Positions 13,781 to 64,000 of a DNA stretch of 64,000 nucleotides are shown here, one piece after another (positions within the stretch are counted from its first letter, which is position 1; the number at the start of each line of letters is the position of its first letter). The translations under genes and the position numbers were made by a program. Location of the stretch: positions 1-64,000 of the forward strand of contig JAIQDT010010113.1 in the NCBI GenBank assembly GCA_021521415.1, in the 5' to 3' direction. The notes beneath the pieces are model-generated. The model worked only from the letters and a program-made list of their open reading frames with translations. It was not told where the DNA came from and did no database searches. Source of the stretch: Bidens hawaiensis. Taxonomy: Eukaryota; Streptophyta; Magnoliopsida; Asterales; Asteraceae.

Positions 13781-14743
13781 TGTTTTGGACAAAAATATGC
13801 TAAGGATAATGTATCCAAATCTGTTATGTGAGGTTTAGTGCTAAAATGATAACAACGAATGTATATATGAAATCTTGATGAACACAACGATAATATGAAC
13901 GAAATGGAGATAAACACCGTGATATGATTACAAGGGAAAAAACCCTTGAATACGATAATCTCACTTCGGTCAAAACTTAACAAGGTAATCTTTGATCGAA
14001 TCACTTCGGTCAAGGATCAACGAGGTAACTTTTGGTCGGATAGTGCGTGATTATAGTAATCTCTGGCACAAAAAACCCCCGGACGGTGAAAACTATCACC
14101 GTCGATTATATTGATAATAAAAGGCGCTTACAAGTGTTTGGAGATTGCGATCGATATTACAAAGAAATGCTAGTGTGTAGAGAGAATTATAAGTTCTGCT
14201 CTAGTGTGTGAAAAATACAAGTGATCCCTCTCCTAATCGATCTTAATCTCAATATATAAAAAAAGAAATAATAACTAATCCCTATTTTTAAGGAACTACT
14301 CCACTAGCTGCTCCCATAACTTTGACCACGTGCATAAAGGAGTCTTGTAGCGAAAGTTTAGGGAGACTTGGTCATACAGCCGTTAAACATAGCTCTGGAA
14401 CTCTTCAGAAGGATAATGGATCCAGACACGTCTTCAAGAATAACATATCCTCAGTACTCAGCTATTTGTGCCTCAACAAGAAGTCCTATAAATCCGCCAT
14501 ATTCCCAATATCTTCATCCATGACTTTGACCACGTGTTTGACAAGTCCAATAGTGAGATATCCGGTAGAATAAGTCTTGGAGCCGTTGTACTTATTAAAT
14601 AATAACCTACACACAAGAAACAATTGTTAATAATACCAATTGCTGAGGATCCTTGATCCTGACAGGATCTGTCTAAGGATAACTGATCCTAGAACATATG
14701 TCAGGATAACGTATCCACAGTGTCAGATTTCCGTACCCTAACA
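13781..14743 (-). repeat. 3' LTR of the Tat-like element (963 bp)
   Basis: Matches the right copy (19,978-20,568 joined to 22,519-22,891) nearly base for base over its whole length: 963 versus 964 bp after removing the nested insertion. Contains several GGATCC-, AGGAT- and GATCCT-type words. Confidence 0.95.
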
Positions 14744-19892: not shown

Positions 19893-20568
19893 TGATAGTG
19901 ATATGGGTATGAAAAATTGAAAATTGATAGGAATAATACGGATTATAGCACCAATTGCCCCACGGTGGGCGCCAAATTGTTTTGGACAAAAATCTGCTAA
20001 GGATAATGTATCCAAATCTGTTATGTGAGGTTTAGTGCTAAAATGATAACAACGAATGTATATATGAAATCTTGATGAACACAGCAATTATATGAACGAA
20101 ATGGAGATAAACACCGTGATATGATTACAAGGGAAAAAACCCTTGAATACGATAATCTCACTTCGGTCAAAACTTAACAAGGTAATCTTTGATCGAATCA
20201 CTTCGGTCAAGGATCAATGAGGTAACTTTTGGTCGGATAGTGCGTGATTATAGTAATCTCCGTCACAAAAACCCCCCGGACGGTGATAACTATCACCGTC
20301 GATTATATTGATAATAAAAGGCGCTTACAAGTGTTTGGAGATTGTGATCGATATTACAACGAAATGCTAGTGTGTAGAGAGAATTATAAGTTCTGCTCTA
20401 GTGTGTGAAAAATACAAGTGATCCCTCTCTTAATCGATCTTAATCTCAATATATAAAGAAAAGAAATAATAACTAATCCCTATTTTTAAGGAACTACTCC
20501 ACTAGCTGCTCCCATAACTTTGACCACGTGCATAAAGGAGTCTTGTAGCGAAAGTTTAGGGAGACTTG

Positions 20569-22513
20569 TGTGACATCTGACCCGATCCGACCCGACCCAG
20601 GTACCCTTTTCTCTGATCCGATCTCTTTCTTTTATGATTTAATATTTATTTTTACTTATATTTTACTTTTAATAATAATATATATTTTCCTTCCCGCCGT
20701 CCCGTCCCTCTTCTCTCTTTCCGCCTTCTTTTCCCTCTTGTCGCCGTCCCGCCCTTAAGCCTTGAACCTCTGTCCTTTGTTCCTTCCCGCCTAAGGTTGT
20801 CTGCGCAGCTCCACGCGCCAGACTCTTTACAAGGAAGCCTGCGTGAAGACCACCTGTTACTACGATACGCGAGACGAACTGTCCCCGCAGCGCGCTAAGG
20901 ATTTTAGTTCTTCCCGCGGCGCGCTATGGATACTGTTCTTCCCGCGACGCGCTAAGGAATATAGTTCTTCTCGCGACGCGCTTAGAATTGAAGTTCTTCC
21001 CGCGGCGCGCTTAGAAATATAATTCTTCCCGCGACGCGTTAAGGTTGGTTCTGTCTGCCTTCGCGCTCGCGCACTTTTGCCTTCGCGCTCGATGCCTTCT
21101 CGCGTTTAACCCTTGAGTCTTTTCTCCTGTTTAATCTAGCCGTTTGCTTTTGTGATGTCTTATCTTCTGTGCTGTTGACCTAACCTGTCTTATGTCTGAA
21201 AAGTTACTTTCGGCGCAGCATGCGCACCAACCCCATTGGTTGGCAGAAAAAGTGACTGACATTATCTTTTGGAGATCTGCTTTTTCCATGCTTGACCAGT
21301 ACCTTTATCTGAACCGCCCATGCCTTTTTACTGTTCCCTGTCAGCCTTTTTCTCTTTTTCCCTGCTACCATATCTTTTGATATCTTTTACTTTTCTGAAC
21401 TTGCTTTTGATATCTTTTGTTATCTTTTGTTTTGTCTTGTTCTGTTTGTCTTGGAATCTTTTCCCCTTTTTCTGGATTCATGTCTCCTAGGGTTTCTCTA
21501 TAAATAATAATCTTATTTTTCCTAACACATCACACACAAACACTTAATTTAACCTCCTCCTTGCCGTTGTTCTTCCTCTGCCGTCTCCTCTCTCTCTGCC
21601 TTCGTCTTCCTCTCTGTTCTGCCCTGCTTTTCCGGTAATATATATTATATATAATAATTTACTTATTAATTATGCTAACTTATAATCAAGACTTAAAACC
21701 AATCGTTAAAACAATGATCTTTAATTATAGGTTAACTTTGCTTGTTTAAAGTTGGTTCTTGCTTTATCTTACACCGCATCGTTTGTCAAGTGAGTAATCT
21801 CGTACCTAATCCCTTTTTATTTTAATGTTTTGGGATGTTCATGTGTTCGTACAAACTTAGAGTCTTAAACTTGTTTATGAACTTTAGTCGCGCAGTATCC
21901 CATGTGTTGAGGACGTAGACTTGGCTGTTTATTTGTATGTGTGGATCATTAACCGTCTTGTCGGTCTATTCCGCAGTTCTCATGGTACCATTAGATGAAC
22001 ACGGGAGAACTATCGTTTATGATTTTCTCTTTTGTTTACACATGCACAGTTTGTCTTGTTTGTGAGCTCAATTGTGAGCACTGGCAGTCTATGAATCTTA
22101 GAGTTGGTCCCGATCAGATTACACCCCTGTTGAAAACCAGACATACACATGTTGCGCGCAGATTTATTGTTATCTATGTATTAACTATTAAACTTGATTT
22201 CTCACCAACACGCAAGTGTTTGACGTTTTATTTTAACACATGTTCAGGTTTGCAGTAGTTGTTTTGGAGCTCGAGATAACCTAGGAAGTTTTCTTTATTT
22301 TGGACCTAGATTAAAATGTATCAAGACAAGTTATTGATGTTCGAATATTATGATTTATAATATATTGATTTATGATGATTATGTTATCTTATGTATACCT
22401 TGTGCGTGCGCGAATGAATGTATTTATTAAATATTGACACCCAATAGTGTCACGAGTAATGAAACAATATGTGGCGCCCCGATGTATAATCCGCCTTTGG
22501 TCGGGGTGTTACA
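20569..22513 (+). mobile_element. Solo LTR (1,945 bp) nested in the Tat-like LTR
   Basis: Starts TGTGACATCTGACCCG, ends TTGGTCGGGGTGTTACA, and is bounded by the 5 bp duplication ACTTG. There is no internal protein domain and no second copy inside, so it is the product of recombination between the two LTRs of a former full element. The end sequence is shared with the solo LTR at 27,391-30,120 (opposite strand), so both belong to related families; chromovirus-type Gypsy is my guess. It includes a CpG-rich tandem repeat at 20,885-21,044 and a TATA-like stretch (TATAAATAATAATC near 21,500) that could be the LTR promoter. Confidence 0.93.
20885..21044. repeat. 29 bp CpG-rich tandem repeat in the solo LTR
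   Basis: Five to six copies of a unit CGCG(G/A)CGCGCTAAGGA followed by an AT-rich part and GTTCTTCC. Each copy contains GCGCG, unusual against the AT-rich background. Confidence 0.92.
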
Positions 22514-22896
22514 ACTTGGTCATACAGCCGTTAAACATAGCTCTGGAACTCTTCAGAAGGATAATGGATCCAGACACGTCTTCAAGAATAACATATCCTC
22601 AGTACTCAGCTATTTGTGCCTCAACAAGAAGTCCTATAAATCCGCCATATTCCCCCTATCTTCATCCACGACTTTGACCACGTGTTTGACAAGTCCAATA
22701 GCGAGATATCCGGTAGAATAACTCTTGGGGCCATTGTACTTATTAAATAATAACCTACACACAATAAACAATTGTTAATAATACCAATTACTGAGGATCC
22801 TTGATCCTGACAGGATCTGTCTAAGGATAACTGATCCTAGAACATATGTCAGTATAACGTATCCACAGTGTCAAATTTCCGTGCCCTAACACTTTA

Positions 22897-35600: not shown

Positions 35601-37524
35601 GAATCAAGCAAGATTCAAAAATATAAAAATATACCTTCAAACCAGCACAACCGACTATACCCGTAACAACAGTGACACAATCTGGATGTCGGGCAACCTA
35701 AAAAAATAAAGTACACAAATTATAAAAATGATGAAAAATATAAAATGTGAGGAAATGACGATACTGACCTCAATGATTCCTTGCTCCCCGGGAATGATTT
35801 CAGGCATGTAATCTGCATCGGCTAATGCTTCTTTAAGTTCAGCAACTAAAGATTCGTTCCGGATAGAAACTAGTTGAGGTTTGAATACCTTAACCTACAT
35901 GATGAAACACGAAAATTGTTGACTATTTGACCAAATAACGTCTTGATTTGCATGTGTGTTTATTTGCATAATCCTATGATATTACAGGTAGCGTTGTAAA
36001 TGAACCAAACGTTCGGTGAATGGTTCGTGAATGGTTCGTGAATTGTTCGCCAGGAAGTTCGTTTAGGTTCGTTCGTTTAATAAATAAACGAACACGAATA
36101 AGAAATTCCGTTTGATTAAGTCAATGAATGAGCACGAACAGAGGCTATGTTGGTTTAATTGTGTTCGTGAACGTTCGATATTATGTTCGTTTTAATGACT
36201 TCTCTAATCTTATCATATAGATTTAAGCAAAATTATTAACTATAAAATTTATGTAATAACAAATTTACATATATGTAAAAAAAAATTTAGACGTGTGTAA
36301 AAACTAATTTTCATAATTGTAATCGTAAATATTGATATAAAAAGTGATAAAACTACACTCAAATAACATTAGCATACAATTTTTTTTTTAATAAAAAAAA
36401 TCAGTTATTAAGAGTTCCTTCAAGTTCATTTCCTTAATGAACAAACACGAACAAGATATTTCATTCGGTTAGGTGTTCGTGAACCGTCTGATAAAAACTT
36501 AGCGAACAAACATGAAGAAGACCTTCGATTCGGTTCTTAAATACAGCTTCTATTCACTTTGAATTTATGTTCATTACCATTCATTTTTTTATTTTATATT
36601 TGTACAAAATTACAATACAATCACCTGTTCAGCAAGAAGTGTAACATTCGAGCCAGCAGCAAGCGCCACAACACGAAACTTATCCGGATTCTCCGCAACA
36701 ATATCAAGTGTCTACAAATCACAACCATCACACAATCAAAAAACACAACTTTATAATTATTAATATTATTATGTCCATCTTTCACTGCACACCAACTGTT
36801 TGACAAAATTCACCTGAGTCCCAATACTACCAGTCGACCCAACAATCGAAATCGGTTTCGGTCCATCCCAATTCTTCCTCCCGGGCTCCACCAACGCCGT
36901 CCCAGGCCACGCAGGCGGCGGCGGCACCGCCGCCGAACACCGGATTCTATTTCCGGCAGCAATCAAATTAACATCTTTTTTTTTCTTGAAACAAAACCAA
37001 CCTGGCAATAACCCGAAATTACACAAATTTGAAGAATTAAACACCAATTAAACAATAATTAAGAATACCCATTTCGTTTAATTGACGGGTTATGAACAAT
37101 TAAACACCAATTAAACAATAAGTAAGAATACCCATTACGTTTAATTGATGGGTTATGAACAATTAAACACCAATCAAACGATAATTAAGAATACCCATTA
37201 CGTTTAATTGATGGGCTATGAACAATTAAACACCAATCAAACGATAATTAAGAATACCCATTACGTTTAATTGATGGGTTATGAACAATTAAACACCAAT
37301 AAGCAATAACTAAGAATACCCATTACTTTCAATTGACGGGTTATGAACGATTAAACACCAATTAAACGATACTTAAGCATACCCATTACGTTTAATTGAT
37401 GGGCTATGAAGAATTAAACAGTAATTGAACACGTACCTTGGAGATTGATATGGGGGTTTTGGGTTTTGTTGAAATTGAGTAAATCTAATTTGGTTTGTGC
37501 TGAAGATAAAACATTTAGAGACAT
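32665..37524 (-). CDS. DXR: 1-deoxy-D-xylulose 5-phosphate reductoisomerase, chloroplastic (476 aa, 11 coding exons)
   Basis: Plastid enzyme that turns DXP into MEP with NADPH and a divalent metal (EC 1.1.1.267), the committed step of the MEP isoprenoid pathway. Exons (minus strand): 37,524-37,437; 37,001-36,814; 36,711-36,625; 35,894-35,769; 35,697-35,635; 34,585-34,436; 33,721-33,654; 33,531-33,315; 33,238-33,117; 33,053-32,907; 32,839-32,665. All introns are GT-AG, and the exon lengths sum to 1,431 nt without a stop. Residues 1 to about 50 look like a transit peptide, then the plant PPPPAWPG motif. NADPH loop GSTGSIGT at 84-91; metal-binding D226 and E228 in [12 protein letters not shown]275; N293, K294 and E297 in [10 protein letters not shown]; these match the known E. 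coli residues in order. Length is as in other plants. No damage is seen, so I expect a functional gene despite insertions in introns 1 and 5 and upstream. Confidence 0.97.
33755..34350. repeat. GGTTCGGTTT-type low-complexity insertion in DXR intron 6
   Basis: Starts near AGGGGTGTGCAAGGGTCGG and ends near CGGTTTCGTGAACACC. The interior is rich in TTCGGTTT and TTTGGGCC words, like the other small MITE-like units of this window. The ends are only partly inverted and no exact duplication is seen. Confidence 0.5.
34645..35578. mobile_element. Fold-back MULE-like element in DXR intron 5
   Basis: A 934 bp element flanked by the 9 bp duplication TAAAATAAA (34,636-34,644 and 35,579-35,587). The two ends begin GAGTTAAGTGC and the inverted arms run about 380 bp each (34,645 to about 35,025; 35,578 to about 35,190) with high identity, leaving a GC-rich centre of about 165 bp. 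The arms include CCACCGGCGGCACCACCGG words, so open frames appear on both strands, but they are mirror images and not genes. It makes up most of the 1,049 nt intron. Confidence 0.95.
35985..36545. repeat. GTTCG-rich MITE-like insertion in DXR intron 3
   Basis: Begins with a block of GTTCGTGAATGGTTCGTGAATTGTTCG-like repeats (written here only as the words GTTCGTGAA) and ends with the inverted counterpart TTCGATTCGGTTC. The middle is AT-rich. The boundaries are approximate. Confidence 0.45.
37034..37429. repeat. 63 bp minisatellite filling DXR intron 1
   Basis: Six full copies and a partial one of a unit beginning AATTAAACACCAAT and ending GGG(T/C)TATGAAC. The array starts about 30 nt from the intron acceptor and ends 7 nt from the donor, so almost the whole 435 nt intron is repeat. 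Units differ at a few positions (for example GACGGG versus GATGGG). Confidence 0.95.
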
Positions 37525-56760: not shown

Positions 56761-58044
56761 ATTTCAAAAATTTACCCTTAAGATTTTAACAGTTGTCCTT
56801 TAAGAAATAAACGACATGATCAATTCTAAGTAACCAGATAAACAATCATAAAACTATTTAAGTACAAAAAAACGTAAAAATATAAAGTATAAGGGATCAA
56901 ATTTCAGTCTCGGTAGGGACTGCTGTGTTTTAAAAAAGATCCGAACAGGAATCATACTAACTACGTGACTGTCACTTAGATCCGTGTTTAGCTGTATTAT
57001 GACATATAGAGACAGGTTGTAAGCAGGTATAACTTAAAGTGGTTTTCATCGTTTCTGTGATACGAGTTAGGTTCAATTAATCCTTAAAATTTAAGTGGGT
57101 AACAACTCAGAAATATTGATGCCTCCTATCTATCCTCAAAGCGTATTTGGCTTTCCCCAAGTCACCCCGAATTGACTTCGACCCATAGTGTCTGATTAAC
57201 TTGTAAGTATTCTATGTCTGGATCCCGTATTCATTCTTACTCCATGATTGAGAAGTCTCGATATCTTGAACTCTCGAATGTTACAATAACTTCATAAGTA
57301 CTATTATTATTATTATTATTATTTTTTTTTTTCAAACGTACTTATAGACTTCAGAGTAATAGGCAACTGCAAGTCCCGAATCTGGATCACTGCAGTGTCT
57401 TGAAACGCCTTCTTCACGTGAATCAGAACACTTACGGGCTCGTGTATGACTGGGTAATCACTTTTCTGCCTATCATTCGGAAAGATATACATGAAGACAC
57501 GCAAAACTCTTAAGGAGTTTCCACATAAAATCAAGTAAACTTTAATTTGTATCACATCTACTTTTACGCACCATAAAAAGTTACCATGACATACAATGAT
57601 TGTCCTAAAGCCTTTTAAGCCTAATAACTTCACTAGTTAAGCACACAAAGTTAGTATATATATCATTTTCCAAGGTTGGATCAATTTTCTGTTAAACATA
57701 GCAAAGAACTTCTTACGAAGTATTAGACTTGAAAAGTAATTTCATTTCCCTAAAAAATTTTTTGACTTCAGTCACCCCGATCACGTCAAAGTCTTCAGGT
57801 AAACGGCAATCCCGAAGATCCAATGGATCAACTGGACCGACCACATACAAGTATGTGTCCTTCTCACTAAGAATGACCGACTAATTTTCAGCGACAGAAA
57901 GAAAACACATCTTAACTGCCCCGGTCACTTTCAGTCATCTGGTTAATGGCGACCCTCATTCTCTAAGTAGAAACGAGGACCAAAACATATCCGAGTATAT
58001 GTCCATCAAACTGAGGTAACCGACTAATTTTAAGCAATAGTGAT

Positions 58045-58087
<43 letters not shown>

Positions 58088-58149
58088 GTTTCGGATATGA
58101 AGTTCGAATAAAACCTAAAATTTCGGTTCAAATAAACACAAAAACATGG
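56761..58149 (-). other. Rest of the pol-ORF3 spacer, no coding region
   Basis: Low-coding DNA with an (ATT)n/T-rich tract at 57,301-57,333 and a run of about 40 T at 58,046-58,085 (poly-A on the element's coding strand). Open frames such as 57,633-57,319 have no recognisable domain. Confidence 0.7.
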
Positions 58150-61100
58150 TTACTCGGGATTGATCATCCCGTTCAGCTCAATTAGGTTTTGAAATCTGGA
58201 TTTATCAAATGCTTTTGTAAATAAATCAGCGAAATTTTATAGCGTATCGACCTTTTCGACCTTAATCAGTTTCTTCTCAGCACAATCCCGTATGAAGTGA
58301 TGACGAATGTCAATATGTTTAGTTTTACTATGCTTCACGGGATTGTTAATTACTGAGATGGCAGCAGTGTTATCAATTAAAATAGGAGTGAGTAAGAAAT
58401 TCAGACCATAGTCGCGCAATTGTTGCTGAATCCACAAAACCTGAGAACAGCAGTTGGATGCTGCCATATATTCAGCTTCGCATGTTGAGATTGCGACTGC
58501 CGTCTGTTTCTTGCACTGCCATGAAACTAATCTTCCACCGAGAAACTGACATCCTCCTGTTGTCGACTTCCGACTCTGATTGCACCCTCCATAATCAGAA
58601 TCCGTATAAGCAACCAGTTCCACGTCTCCTCCCTTCGGGTACCACAACCCTAGCTTCGGCTTGCCTTTGAGATACCGCAAAATCCTCTTCACACCCTTCA
58701 TGTGAGATTCCTTTGGGTTTGCCTGAAAACGAGCACAAAGACAAACAGCAAACATTATATCAGGCCTAGAAGCAGTTAAATACATCAAAGAACCTATTAT
58801 AGCCCGATACTGAGTTGGGTCCACATCTGCGTCACCGTCTATTTCAGCTCCCAACTTGTGGTTGACGCAAATTGGAGTGTCAAATGGAGAAGAGTCCTCC
58901 ATCTTGAAGCGCTTGAGGACATCATGAACATATTTTGTTTGATGAATGAACATCCCATCCTTCTTTTGATCAACCTGCAATCCTAAAAAGAACGTTAGTT
59001 CACCCATAGCACTCATCTCGAATCTTTTCTTCATAACGGCCTCAAAATCCTGACACATGGAGACTCTTGATGCAGCAAATATGATGTCATCCACGTAGAC
59101 TTGAACTAGCAGGAAGTCACTTCCTTCTCTCTTCACAAACAAAGTACTGTCGATCAAACCCCTTTCAAAACCATTTTCTAGCAAGTAGTCCGATAACGTT
59201 GAATACCAGGCACGAGGTGCCTGATGTAATCCATACAGCGCCTTGCTCAACTTGTATACGTGATCAGGAAAGTCTGGGTCAGGAAAACCCGGAGGTTGCT
59301 CAACATACACAACCTCATCCACTTTCCCATTGAGGAACGCACTCTTCACGTCCAACTGAAACACTTTCATCTTCTTAAAAGCTGCAAATGCCAAAAACAA
59401 TCTTATCGCTTCCAACCTGGCCACCAGAGCGAACACTTCATTATAATCTATCCCCTCTTGCTGATTAAATCCTTTAACGACCAGCCTCGCCTTGTTTCTT
59501 ATAATAATCCCCTTTTCTTCTCTCTTGCACTTAAACACCCATTTTGTGCCTATAGCATGCACATTCCTTGGTTTTTCAACCAAAGTCCAAACTTCCATCT
59601 TCTTAAATTGAGCCAACTCTTCTTGCATGGCCTCGACCCACGAGCTGTCCTTAAGAGCCATTTGATAATTTTTCGGTTCAATCTGGCTAATAAAGCATGA
59701 GTACAAACATTCGTTCATTATACCCGTTTCCTTAATGCTTGTATAAACACAGGTGTGCTCATTCAAGCTACTTCTGGTTTGTACACCGGAGGACACATCA
59801 CCTATAACATTTTCCAAAGGGTGATCTATGTGAATTCTCGTGGTCGGCACATCACCAACATGCAAATTATCTTCTAAATTAGTAGAGAGCTCATCAATGG
59901 TTGTTTCTGGCTGAGAGTGAAAAGGATTGATAAACTCTTCTTCAGGAGAGACAGCAGGGGAAACGATAGAATTTGATGAGGAAGGTTGACAATCATCAAA
60001 TAGCTGTCTATGTGCCAAATTTTCCTCCTCATCTAGAATCATCTTCGTAGCAACACGTTCTTCTTCTTCTGTACGAACCAAATCAGGTATGTTAAAAGAC
60101 TTAAAGAGCCTATCATAGTCGAAAATCCCAGGAGGTCCGATGCTTGGTCTTGGCGATCTGTAACTCGTGATGTCGGTGTTACATACCACTTCAACCTTGC
60201 CGTTCGTTGCATTAAAGACACGCCTGTTGGGAGTCCCAACTTCATAGTCGACTAAGATTCCTTCATCGGCTGCTTCACCAAACTTTGAATGTGCCTTTAA
60301 AATTGAACACGGGGACCCGAAAGCTTCAAGTCCACACAAATTGGGCTTTCTTCCATGCATCAGCTCGTAGCATGTTTTATTCAGTCTTTTTACCGTTAAC
60401 ACTCTATTCAGGACATAGCAAGCTGTAGAAACAGCTTCAGCCCAGAACACCACCGGAAGCTTCGAATCAGCCAGCATTGTTCTGGCTCCTTCAATTAAAG
60501 TTCTATTCTTCCTTTCAGCCACTCCATTCTGTTGCGGAGTATACGGAGCGCTGAATTGGTGTTCAATCCCTCTTGACAGACAGAAGATCTCCATTTCAAA
60601 ATTTTTAAACTCAGAACCATTGTCACTTCTGATGAACTTCACTCGTTTATCCATAATGTTCTCAACTTTGGTAATCAGATTCTTCACCAGTTGAGCCGTT
60701 TCGTCCTTTGATTTCAGGAAGTATACCCACGAGTATCGTGAGTAGTCATCAGTAATCACCAAGCAATAAGTTGTACCACCTAGACTTCTTACATTCACAG
60801 GACCGAAGAGATCCATGTGAAGCAGCTCTAGTGTACTAGCAATTGAGTTTACTTTCTTGGTGAGATGGGACTTCTTGTGCTGCTTTCCCTTTTTGCACGC
60901 AAGACATTTGTCTTCAAAATTGAAACTTTTTAAGGGAACACCCAACACAAGCCCATGTCTGACAATATGGTTCAACTTCCGAAGATGAATGTGCCCCATT
61001 CTCCTGTGCCACAGTTCAGATTCCGATTTGCTTGCTTTCGTCAAAAGGCACGATTCTTCCGTTGACATTTCAGTTGAACTTAAATCCATCATATACGTAT

Positions 61101-61452
61101 TTCGATCACGTGGAGCCTTCATTACTATCCACTCTTCTGGTATTTGAAAACCAGCCTTTAACACAATCGCATCAGTCTTCATGAAGTGTACGGTATAATC
61201 TTTATCACAAATCTGCGACACACTCAGCAGATTGTGCTTAAGTTCTTCAACAAAATTCACATTTTCTAACGTCATTTTCCCGTTAGTTACCGTACCCCTT
61301 CCAGTTATTCTGCCACCACTCTCACCGGCAAAACTGACTCTTGCTCCCTGAACAGGTTTTAAATCTTGTAACAAATTCTTGTTACCAGTCATGTGCCGGG
61401 AACAGCCGCTGTCCACAACCCAAAGATTATTGGAAGCCCTGTTCAACTGTTC
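58150..61452 (-). CDS. Copia Pol: protease, integrase, reverse transcriptase, RNase H
   Basis: Polyprotein that cuts, integrates and copies the element. Domains on the minus strand: protease with WVVDSGCSRHMTGN (about 61,420-61,380); GAG-pre-integrase zinc region LWHRRMGHIHLRKLNH; integrase with D of LLHMDLFGPV (about 60,815), D of FIRSDNGSEF (about 60,620) and E of NGVAERKNRTL (about 60,520); RT with QLDVKSAFLNGK and YVDDIIFAAS (YVDD at 59,097-59,086); RNase H with YTDSDYGGC, STCEAEYMA and LIDNTAAIS. All catalytic residues are visible. There is no ATG where the frame opens; it is continuous with gag except for TAATAA at 61,476-61,471. A TAA at 58,237-58,239 cuts off the last 29 codons (NFADLFTKAF), which continue in frame to TAA at 58,150. 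Expected start through splicing or readthrough, not independent initiation. Confidence 0.93.
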
Positions 61453-61518
61453 CTGCACAAACAAAAGAGATTATTAAAATTTGGGGACCCAAGACCACTT
61501 GGTCTTGGGTCGACTAAC
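61453..61518 (-). promoter_or_regulatory. Candidate 66 nt intron joining gag to pol
   Basis: On the minus strand the donor is GATAAGAAG|GTTAGT (intron starts at 61,518) and the acceptor is TCTCTTTTGTTTGTGCAG|GAACAG (intron ends at 61,453). Both joints fall between codons, and 66 is a multiple of three, so splicing removes TAATAA (61,476-61,471) and fuses Gag to Pol in frame. The intron contains a perfect 11 bp hairpin, GACCCAAGACC-AAGT-GGTCTTGGGTC (61,511-61,486). The sequence signals are good; that splicing happens is inferred. Confidence 0.5.
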
Positions 61519-64000
61519 CTTCTTATCAGAACTCACACACCTTGACTGACCATAGTTAGCATTAGGAAAATTTTCACGAGTCCTAACAGGATACCTCCTT
61601 GGAGACTGATAGTGAGGCCAACCAAACTGACGAACATTAAGAGAATTAAAAGAATTATAGCAGTTGGTTTGGTTATTAGTAGTGTTAAAACGAGATGTGT
61701 TTCTTTGAAAACCGGTATTATATCTCAAATTTGAATGGTTTTCATTTTTAACATTTAAACGATTACTAAAAACCTTAGTCTCAGTTTTCGAGGGCCTCAC
61801 CTCTCTGAAACGCTGCTTCAGAGGGCAATCAGCAACAAGGTGCCCTGTTTGATTACATCTAAAACAACATCTATATTCAGCTTTCTTTTCAGCAGATGTT
61901 TTAGATGTGGAGGCAGTATTACCACCCGTACGTCTCACATAAGGTGGGACATATGGGTTGAGTGGAGTACTCTTTTGAGTTGATTTAACCTTTTCTCCAC
62001 TAGTGGGTAATACTTCCTTCTCTTTTGTCTTACCCGACTCGGATGACTTATCCGAATCAGATGAGACTGGACTTGAAATTTTAATTTTTGAGACAGGCGA
62101 ACTTGTTTCGCCTTTACTAACTTCCGGTACTTTACCAGTTTCCTTAGCAGTACCTGTCTGATCAGCTACAAAATTAACAGATTCATGAACACTAGGATTG
62201 AAAGTATAATTATGGTTATATGGTGGTGGAACCTCATGGTAACCAATTCCTCCCCTCTTAGGTGAGGAACCTTGATCACTGACGAGGTGATCAAGAATAG
62301 CAGAGGAATTCCGGAATTGCTCCAGTTTCCTATTTAGTTCCACCACTTTTACCTGGTGATCAGCAATCTGCTTTTCTTTCTCAGCAATTAACTTGGTTTT
62401 CTCTTCTAAAACCTCGTAGCTTAGATCGATCACATCAATTTTTTCAGCTAATTTTGTTTTTAAACTTTTAACGTCCTTTTCACACGCTTTAATTTTTATT
62501 CTATAATTATTTTCTCTTGTCTTTGTAAAATGATGATCTTCTTTCAAGGTTTTAAATTCGGCATCCAATTTAACATACTGATCAGTAATTGTTGCAAGCT
62601 GTTCAGACAAGTTCTCACACTTAGTACAGATAGGTTTAGTACATACCTCGGTGTTCTGATCATCAGCAATGAAGGCTTTTTCATTTTCAGCAGCTTTCAC
62701 ACATTCTTCAGCTGCAACCTTCGCCATGTGAGCTTGCTCAAAGAGTTCTCCAGAGAACATATTCCAATTGTATTCACCAGCATCAGACATCATGGCTCTA
62801 TTCCCATTGTTATTTCCACTTTGCTGTGTAGTCCTCCCCTGACTACGTTCTACCCGTGCATTAGTGCACTCTTTTGCAAAGTGTCCATTCTGTTGGCAAT
62901 TGTAACACCTCACCCTTGACTTGTCAAATCCTGGCTTTCCACCTACGAACTTTCTGCCAGTCTTCTTCATGAAACGCTTCACTCTTCTGACTATCATCGC
63001 CATCTGCCACTGCAGATCCATCTCCTCCAGATCATCAGGATCGATCTGGTCATAGTCTTCTTCCAAAACAGCAGGGTCCACAATCTTCCCTTGTATGTAG
63101 TTCTCGTAAGAAGCAATAAAAGATGCATAGACTGCAAACTGCTCTTCAGCAGATTTGACACTCATTGGCATCTTGGAATAGTTATTGCTTAAAGCACTGG
63201 GAGAGAAACTACTTGTGGATGCTTGAGGTTTCGAAGCACTTGATCCTCCAGCAACGAAGCAAACATCACCGTTCATGTTTACAGACACATTTCCTTCATG
63301 AGAAGAGTCAGAACCTGACTCTCCTTTGGAGTAGTAAGCAGCAGATTCAGACTTCGAACTAGAGCCTGAGTTAACTTTGGCACCATACATACTAGGGTCT
63401 TGAACCTGATCCGTTGGTGTTTCTTTACGAACCATATTAAGCTCAAAGGTTCTGAGCTTGTTTACTGCTGTCTCCAAGTCAAAATTAGGAAAGTCTTTGT
63501 CTTCCCTCATTAGAACAGTATACATTTCCCACTTCGGTGGGAGAGCATCGAGAAGCTTCTCAACTATTTCCTCATCTCTGTAAGCAATTGAATAGTTGTT
63601 CAGCTCTGTCATTAGATGATAGTATCGGGTGATAATATCATCGAGCGATTCGTTCTTCAAATACTTGAAAACAGAGAACTGGGTTTTTAACAGTTTAATC
63701 TTCGAGGCACGAATACCCACGTTCCCTTCGAATCTATTCTCAAGAGCATCCCAAAGCTCTCGTGCAGAAGTGTACTTCCTGAATGTATGGAGAACCTCTT
63801 GAGGAAGAGCCATAGTAATTGCAGCATGGGCCTTGCTCTCGGCCTCATACATTTTCTTCTCTTCTTCCTCCATCTTGCTGTACTTCTTAACCACATCACG
63901 ACCTTCGTACTCCATTGTCGGTGGGATATATCCATCCTGGATGCACACCCACATCTTTGCATCCTGGTATTTAATATACTGAATGAATCTATCCTTCCAC
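61474..64000 (-). CDS. Copia Gag with two zinc knuckles and a coiled coil, N-terminus outside the window
   Basis: Capsid/nucleocapsid protein. The frame is open to the right edge (…DRFIQYIKYQDAKMWVCIQDG), so the first part is missing and the Met at 63,954 is internal. The N-terminal half is the UBN2-type Copia Gag (HTFRKYTSARELWDALENRF; KNESLDDIITRYYHLMTELN). Zinc knuckle 1, CYNCQQNGHFAKEC, is at about 62,910-62,866. Then a predicted coiled coil (CENLSEQLATITDQYVKLDAE to QVKVVELNRKLEQF, about 62,620-62,320), a Ser/Lys-rich region, and zinc knuckle 2, CFRCNQTGHLVADC, at about 61,868-61,825. It ends WSWVPKF and TAATAA. No frameshift or internal stop. The WVPK motif before the stop is common in Copia elements with a continuous gag-pol frame (family knowledge). 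Confidence 0.92.
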   Translation of the reverse strand, partial: WKDRFIQYIKYQDAKMWVCIQDGYIPPTMEYEGRDVVKKYSKMEEEEKKMYEAESKAHAAITMALPQEVLHTFRKYTSARELWDALENRFEGNVGIRASKIKLLKTQFSVFKYLKNESLDDIITRYYHLMTELNNYSIAYRDEEIVEKLLDALPPKWEMYTVLMREDKDFPNFDLETAVNKLRTFELNMVRKETPTDQVQDPSMYGAKVNSGSSSKSESAAYYSKGESGSDSSHEGNVSVNMNGDVCFVAGGSSASKPQASTSSFSPSALSNNYSKMPMSVKSAEEQFAVYASFIASYENYIQGKIVDPAVLEEDYDQIDPDDLEEMDLQWQMAMIVRRVKRFMKKTGRKFVGGKPGFDKSRVRCYNCQQNGHFAKECTNARVERSQGRTTQQSGNNNGNRAMMSDAGEYNWNMFSGELFEQAHMAKVAAEECVKAAENEKAFIADDQNTEVCTKPICTKCENLSEQLATITDQYVKLDAEFKTLKEDHHFTKTRENNYRIKIKACEKDVKSLKTKLAEKIDVIDLSYEVLEEKTKLIAEKEKQIADHQVKVVELNRKLEQFRNSSAILDHLVSDQGSSPKRGGIGYHEVPPPYNHNYTFNPSVHESVNFVADQTGTAKETGKVPEVSKGETSSPVSKIKISSPVSSDSDKSSESGKTKEKEVLPTSGEKVKSTQKSTPLNPYVPPYVRRTGGNTASTSKTSAEKKAEYRCCFRCNQTGHLVADCPLKQRFREVRPSKTETKVFSNRLNVKNENHSNLRYNTGFQRNTSRFNTTNNQTNCYNSFNSLNVRQFGWPHYQSPRRYPVRTRENFPNANYGQSRCVSSDKKVSRPKTKWSWVPKF

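Follow-up and report, generated by a model that had tools for sequence, protein, structure and literature searches.

The Sirevirus-like Copia element described here very probably expresses Pol by alternative splicing, from a distal donor that follows GAG within gag to a YAG/G acceptor upstream of the protease (the slash marks a splice joint throughout). In the window, by which we mean the whole 64,000-nt stretch of Bidens hawaiensis DNA analysed, the proposed alternative (retained) intron lies at 61453..62646 on the minus strand. It is 1194 nt long and runs from GTATGT to TGCAG, and we propose it from its sites, its phase and the intronless relatives found in families B and C. This interval also encodes the C-terminal extension of Gag and contains the gag stop codons and a hairpin. 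The sequences show that these sites are present and in phase 0, that they occupy comparable positions in several lineages, and that exactly joined copies exist in two related families. The preliminary description of this region had proposed instead a 66-nt mini-intron (61453..61518). Its 3' splice site at 61453 stands, but it chose the wrong donor and therefore the wrong intron. Its underlying logic, in which unspliced RNA gives Gag and spliced RNA gives Gag-Pol, does appear to hold, as far as can be judged from DNA.

The best protein hits indicate that the 3.47-Gb genome containing the window is that of a plant, probably of the Asteraceae. On its sequence features, the element is a Sirevirus-like Copia on the minus strand. 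The Pfam order Pol_BBD, gag_pre-integrs, rve, RVT_2, with integrase before reverse transcriptase, places it in Ty1/copia, and the much enlarged gag with CCHC knuckles and the hairpin at the gag/pol boundary are both Sirevirus traits. The gag ORF (61474-63999, minus strand) encodes 841 aa and is open at its 5' end, which is the end of the window; it contains a Retrotran_gag_2 domain and two CCHC knuckles. The first knuckle (CYNCQQNGHFAKEC, 62866..62907) is in exon 1 and the second (61825..61866) is inside the proposed intron, as are the tandem gag stop codons TAATAA (61471-61476). The pol ORF as listed (58237-61464, minus strand) includes Pol_BBD, integrase and reverse transcriptase domains, with the proposed exon 2 beginning at 61452. 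The codons beyond its end at 58237-58239 resemble, by eye, a conserved RNase H tail, and this copy looks interrupted. Elsewhere in the window, 13781-14743 and 19978-22891 contain direct repeats (590 and 378 bp, 97-98% identical), which suggest LTRs or the nested insertion of another element, and self-comparison revealed a tandem array at 37030-37431 whose period is about 63 bp.

The hairpin (61486..61511, minus strand) has an 11-bp stem and a 4-nt loop, resembles the reported Sirevirus gag/pol stem and encodes the RPKTKWSWV region of Gag. A 91-nt fold around it in the window has a free energy of -27.5 kcal/mol (z -2.9), with two of 200 shuffles as low. When the window was compared with the related lineages L064 and L062, 0, 0 and 6 of 200 shuffles, respectively, folded as well. 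Families B and C have a hairpin at the same place by eye. Rfam gave no match at gathering score in 57000-64000, and Gag residues 640-841 matched none of 318 candidates in the protein database at an E value of 0.001. One scan of IMG/VR found no relative and the other found three distant ones at 26-32%; a plasmid scan returned three records at 29-32%. A first scan of genome contigs gave no match and a second gave 10 loci, including the plant-like L062, L063 and L064. These three plant-type Copia elements (NZ_VCHY01000042.1, 46 and 52) are filed under the bacterium Labilibacter sediminis CG51 and are probably assembly contamination.

The 3' splice site (TTGTTTGTGCAG/G, 61452..61464, minus strand) is shared between lineages. 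A YAG/G is found 13 codons before the protease Asp in all five lineages read as DNA (the window's subfamily W, families B and C, L062 and L064). For families B and C, 30 of 150 scored matches were compared as loci, together with 12 further places. The acceptor is CAG/G at 22 of 22 B loci and at 55 of 55 W loci, the latter count being mostly fixed by the search pattern and including some places twice; in family C, 16 of 17 loci have TAG/G and the remaining locus lacks the intron. That TAG, which abuts exon 2, reads as a stop in the pol frame and yet would be usable as a 3' splice site. It recalls the 'conserved UAG' that passages of one review place in the pol frame of a Sirevirus subset (PMC5009743), which lies 10 nt past the gag stop there and 17 nt past it here, by eye. 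When homologous proteins were grouped into 38 clusters, 28 clusters had a GNN-coded residue directly after the acceptor, compared with 4-13 at positions 2-10, although many of these proteins are gene models and the predictors' preference for AG/G inflates position 1; position 13, mostly a conserved Val, is also GNN-rich (24/38). In P0037 and P0115, two families known only as proteins, the same Q-GNN step lies 11-12 residues ahead of the Asp. On this sequence evidence, the acceptor at 61453 is real and general, and the donor of the mini-intron is not general.

The layout given in the preliminary description was confirmed: a 66-nt minus-strand segment, AAG/GTTAGT..TAATAA..TTTGTGCAG/GAACAG, has both joints between codons (exon ..GATAAGAAG/GTTAGT at 61519/61518, and TTTGTGCAG/GAACAG at 61453/61452). 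With a donor scoring matrix, the mini-donor scores 9.6, the best value in the interval 45-260 nt upstream of the acceptor. Of the 144 other GTs in the window's gag, a single one outscores it, and this GT is 1.13 kb further upstream, at the distal donor GAG/GTATGT (62641..62649, minus strand; exon GAG at 62647-62649), which has the top score of 10.2.

Cut at 62646, the distal donor is in phase 0, lies 261 nt after the start of the first knuckle and is preceded by ..EKAFIADDQNTE. Of the 36 W copies that extend far enough upstream, 33 keep GAG/GTATGT and two more have AAG/GTATGT. In family B, the donor is GTATGT, GTAAGT or GTATGC and is 270-288 nt from the knuckle start in three copies; four of 12 copies are without GAG/GTATGT, two of these having GTAAGT and one GTATGC. 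L064 has GTATGT at 282 nt, after ..FAFMVTNNPQVTE, and family C has GTAAAT or GTAAAA at 363 nt. The GTACGT of L062, at 357 nt, is only similarly placed. Distal donors are in phase 0 in all lineages read; the exception is the degraded copy L117, whose donor is not in phase with the frame of the knuckle. The distal donor is also the top scorer in the window, L080, L064, L062, L114 and L116, and second or tied in L073, L088 and L115. Gene models from Helianthus lend weak support to distal splicing. Seven of 120 homologous proteins are Helianthus models in which an ..AFMA.. peptide is joined to pol near the acceptor, with joins 125-181 residues after a knuckle, a greater distance than in the lineages whose DNA was read; models of Arctium, Smallanthus, Centaurea and Tanacetum use other donors.

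Genomic copies that lack the proposed intron were also found. The exact pattern GAG/GRACAGTTGAACAGGGC, in which GAG adjoins exon 2 of W and B, matched 16 places and its control none. With 140 bases read at each place, nine proved to be exact exon-exon joins (L122, L123, L124, L126, L128, L130, L131, L132 and L135), and the other seven are unspliced, with changes in the acceptor (L120, L121, L125, L127, L129, L133 and L134). The nine joins read ..DQL(S/T)E/EQLN.., with L132 reading ND(stop)LSE/EQLN and so carrying a stop codon in its exon 1. At each join, the reading covered about 27 bases of exon 2, the first 17 of which match the window's open pol frame. In the family C copy L111, ..GCATCACACCTTGATGAG is directly followed by GGTTAGTCTGGAAGG; its relative L115 has, at this join point, 1749 nt (GTAAAA..ATGTAG) that are absent from L111. 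The two are 97.1% identical up to GATGAG and 96.6% identical from GGT on. L111 is not itself a working gene because its second exon-2 codon is an in-frame TAG, and neither is L132. Comparison of the two flanks fetched for L111 (L118 and L119, G000:C373) gave no match that would mark its LTRs.

The nine joins are B-like and L111 belongs to C; the exact patterns found no intronless copy belonging to W, the subfamily of the window. By eye, exon 1 of L123 is nearly that of the intron-bearing L088 and exon 1 of L124 resembles that of L080, and more than one intron-loss event is thus likely. Some of the nine share exon-1 sequence, and may represent one amplified intronless lineage. Judged from these copies, precise GT-AG loss in two families would be the mark expected from reverse transcription of spliced RNA. 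The Ogre-like trait, in which intron removal joins a polyprotein frame, is found here at the DNA level, phase 0 to phase 0 (..QLSE/EQLN..).

The relative frame of gag and pol was another point of the preliminary description, which placed both in one frame. This is the case in the window and in copies with a 66-nt segment, and fails in those with 65 nt, where pol is in a frame other than that of gag. A search pattern in which both segment ends were fixed matched 193 copies, against none when it was reversed as a control; among the 100 that were listed, the segment measures 66 nt in 66 and 65 nt in 34. As this pattern contains the donor and the acceptor, it cannot gauge their conservation. A homopolymer sequencing error was considered as the origin of the 65-nt form and rejected, because the form goes together with substitutions close by (G at two columns in 21 of 22 copies versus 2 of 28), although a tree of one pol flank from 38 copies gave six changes of the 65/66 label instead of one clade. 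Selection and linkage were examined in 50 distinct copies, 22 with 65 nt and 28 with 66 nt. For polymorphisms present in at least three copies, the ratio of nonsynonymous to synonymous changes, relative to neutral, was about 0.09 in pol of the 65-nt form (4 and 15 changes) and 0.11 in pol of the 66-nt form (11 and 33), and 0.24 in gag of both forms. For singletons, the values at 65 and 66 nt were 0.43 and 0.40 in pol and 0.52 and 0.68 in gag. The numbers in these comparisons are small, and some changes may predate the split or be shared by recombination. Purifying selection on pol appears similar in the two lineages, and pol seems to be maintained whether or not it is in the frame of gag, which argues against readthrough and for a mechanism that is independent of frame.

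How well do other explanations account for these observations? Use of the 66-nt mini-intron, at least in subfamily W, is quite unlikely. Its strong local donor and acceptor are in phase 0 and present in W, and its joints fall between codons at 65 or 66 nt alike. However, when copies of other families were compared, the acceptor was conserved across families and the mini-donor was not kept in phase in sister family B. There, in the copies examined by eye, the GT closest to the hairpin falls in phase 2, and 22 listed junctions hold no phase-0 local donor. The mini-donor was not seen in family C; L064 has weak local donors only, and L062 has none of note. The segment also contains a stable hairpin. 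Furthermore, an exact pattern found no place in 3.47 Gb where the two mini-exon ends lie within 28 nt of each other, although the flanks of 45 of the 50 distinct copies would have matched it. A length of 66 nt is very short for a plant intron, and the minimum length of plant introns is reportedly the subject of work by Goodall and Filipowicz in 1990. Stop-codon readthrough or programmed frameshifting at the end of gag is the least credible reading, and we regard it as extremely unlikely. Pol does follow TAATAA in frame in 66-nt copies, but there are two tandem stops, no canonical slippery heptamer is apparent by eye, and the gag:pol frame differs between 66-nt and 65-nt copies under similar selection on pol, as it also does in L062 and L064.

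Translational bypass, internal initiation or reinitiation around the hairpin, as proposed in 2003, would make splicing incidental, and we consider it quite unlikely. It would need no fixed frame, the hairpin is at the boundary in several lineages, and in some pol ORFs an ATG lies close by (L062, P0059 and P0074). Such a mechanism does not, however, predict a YAG/G, a phase-0 distal donor or intronless copies; the W and C copies read have no in-frame ATG from the acceptor to the protease motif, and in family C a TAG directly precedes exon 2. The conserved acceptor in the families read could also serve a donor in the leader to give a Pol-only mRNA, as in foamy viruses, whose Pol is reported, in the relevant part of one paper, to come from a spliced RNA (PMC2194720). 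We hold this to be very unlikely, as 10 of 10 intronless copies use a donor inside gag, though the patterns are blind to leader joins that do not end in GAG.

For alternative splicing from the distal donor, we propose the following scheme. The unspliced RNA would be both the genome and the mRNA for the long Gag, whose translation would end at the stops beside the hairpin. Part of the RNA would be spliced from the phase-0 donor, some 70-110 codons past the end of the first zinc knuckle, to the phase-0 YAG/G acceptor, removing the C-terminal extension of Gag, the stops and the hairpin. Capsid and first knuckle would thereby be fused in frame to protease-integrase-reverse transcriptase-RNase H, which is the layout of ordinary one-ORF Copia elements. 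The stretch missing from the intronless copies would be the trace left by RNA splicing; the window's own family would splice in the same way, and its spliced RNA would yield a functional Gag-Pol. Retention of the intron may set the Gag:Pol ratio, and the hairpin or Gag may tune retention. More speculatively, the hairpin may limit splicing or act on the unspliced RNA.

The wider significance of this proposal lies in the Sireviruses, which are reported to make up about 21% of the maize nuclear genome (PMC3599292). A 2016 review, citing a 2003 survey, counts their gag-pol layout, in the part that deals with it, among the puzzles awaiting resolution (PMC5009743). We think it fairly likely that, across the Sireviruses as a group, a retained intron encodes the expanded C-terminal region of Gag, that splicing restores the ancestral one-ORF Copia Gag-Pol, that a 3' splice site accounts for both the 'conserved UAG' and the variable gag:pol frames as side effects, and that one-ORF sublineages arise from intronless copies. 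The Gag region that characterises the group would then be recast as dual-use, coding in one RNA and intron in the other. Such an intron could explain why some descriptions give Sireviruses one ORF and others give them two in different frames, and with a specific intron and named sites, existing long-read RNA data could answer the puzzle of Pol translation.

In comparison with known systems, the element shares with Sireviruses the long gag with CCHC, the varying gag and pol frames and the 11-bp stem with a 4-nt loop at the end of gag, as described in parts of two papers (PMC5009743, PMC2829016). According to the same passages, the inverted repeat at their gag/pol boundary led to the proposal of bypass or internal entry (Gao et al., 2003; PMC2829016, PMC5009743), whereas we read the same boundary as the 3' end of an intron. 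Some Sireviruses are described, in one of these sources, with a single gag-pol ORF (PMC2829016), and therefore not every member needs the intron. In Tca2 of Candida, another Ty1/copia element, splicing of the stop out of the gag-pol RNA was considered and judged unlikely by the authors; the idea is the same as ours, and the section concerned reports no spliced copies (PMC2194720). Our search of open-licence papers turned up no report of a gag/pol intron as proposed here. The preliminary description had contrasted the logic of this element with that of copia and BARE, and this contrast is sound for BARE1 and EVADE (both Ty1/copia), where splicing is described, in the parts of the papers concerned, as balancing Gag and Pol with a spliced RNA that is Gag-only (PMC3735527, PMC12786077, PMC8892269), while here the spliced frame would continue into Pol. 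The opposite logic is not new for retroelements. In the Ty3/gypsy element Ogre, removal of a partially spliced intron is reported, in the relevant passages, to join the ORFs so that the whole polyprotein is translated (PMC6317226), and splicing out a region between ORFs to give a polyprotein is the likeness between the two. Ogre has the gypsy domain order, whereas the element here has the Copia order and is not a Ty3/gypsy Ogre element; its proposed intron separates gag from the protease region and codes for a portion of Gag. By analogy, this would be the logic of Ogre, the reverse of that of BARE1 and EVADE, operating in a Copia group for which translational recoding had been proposed.
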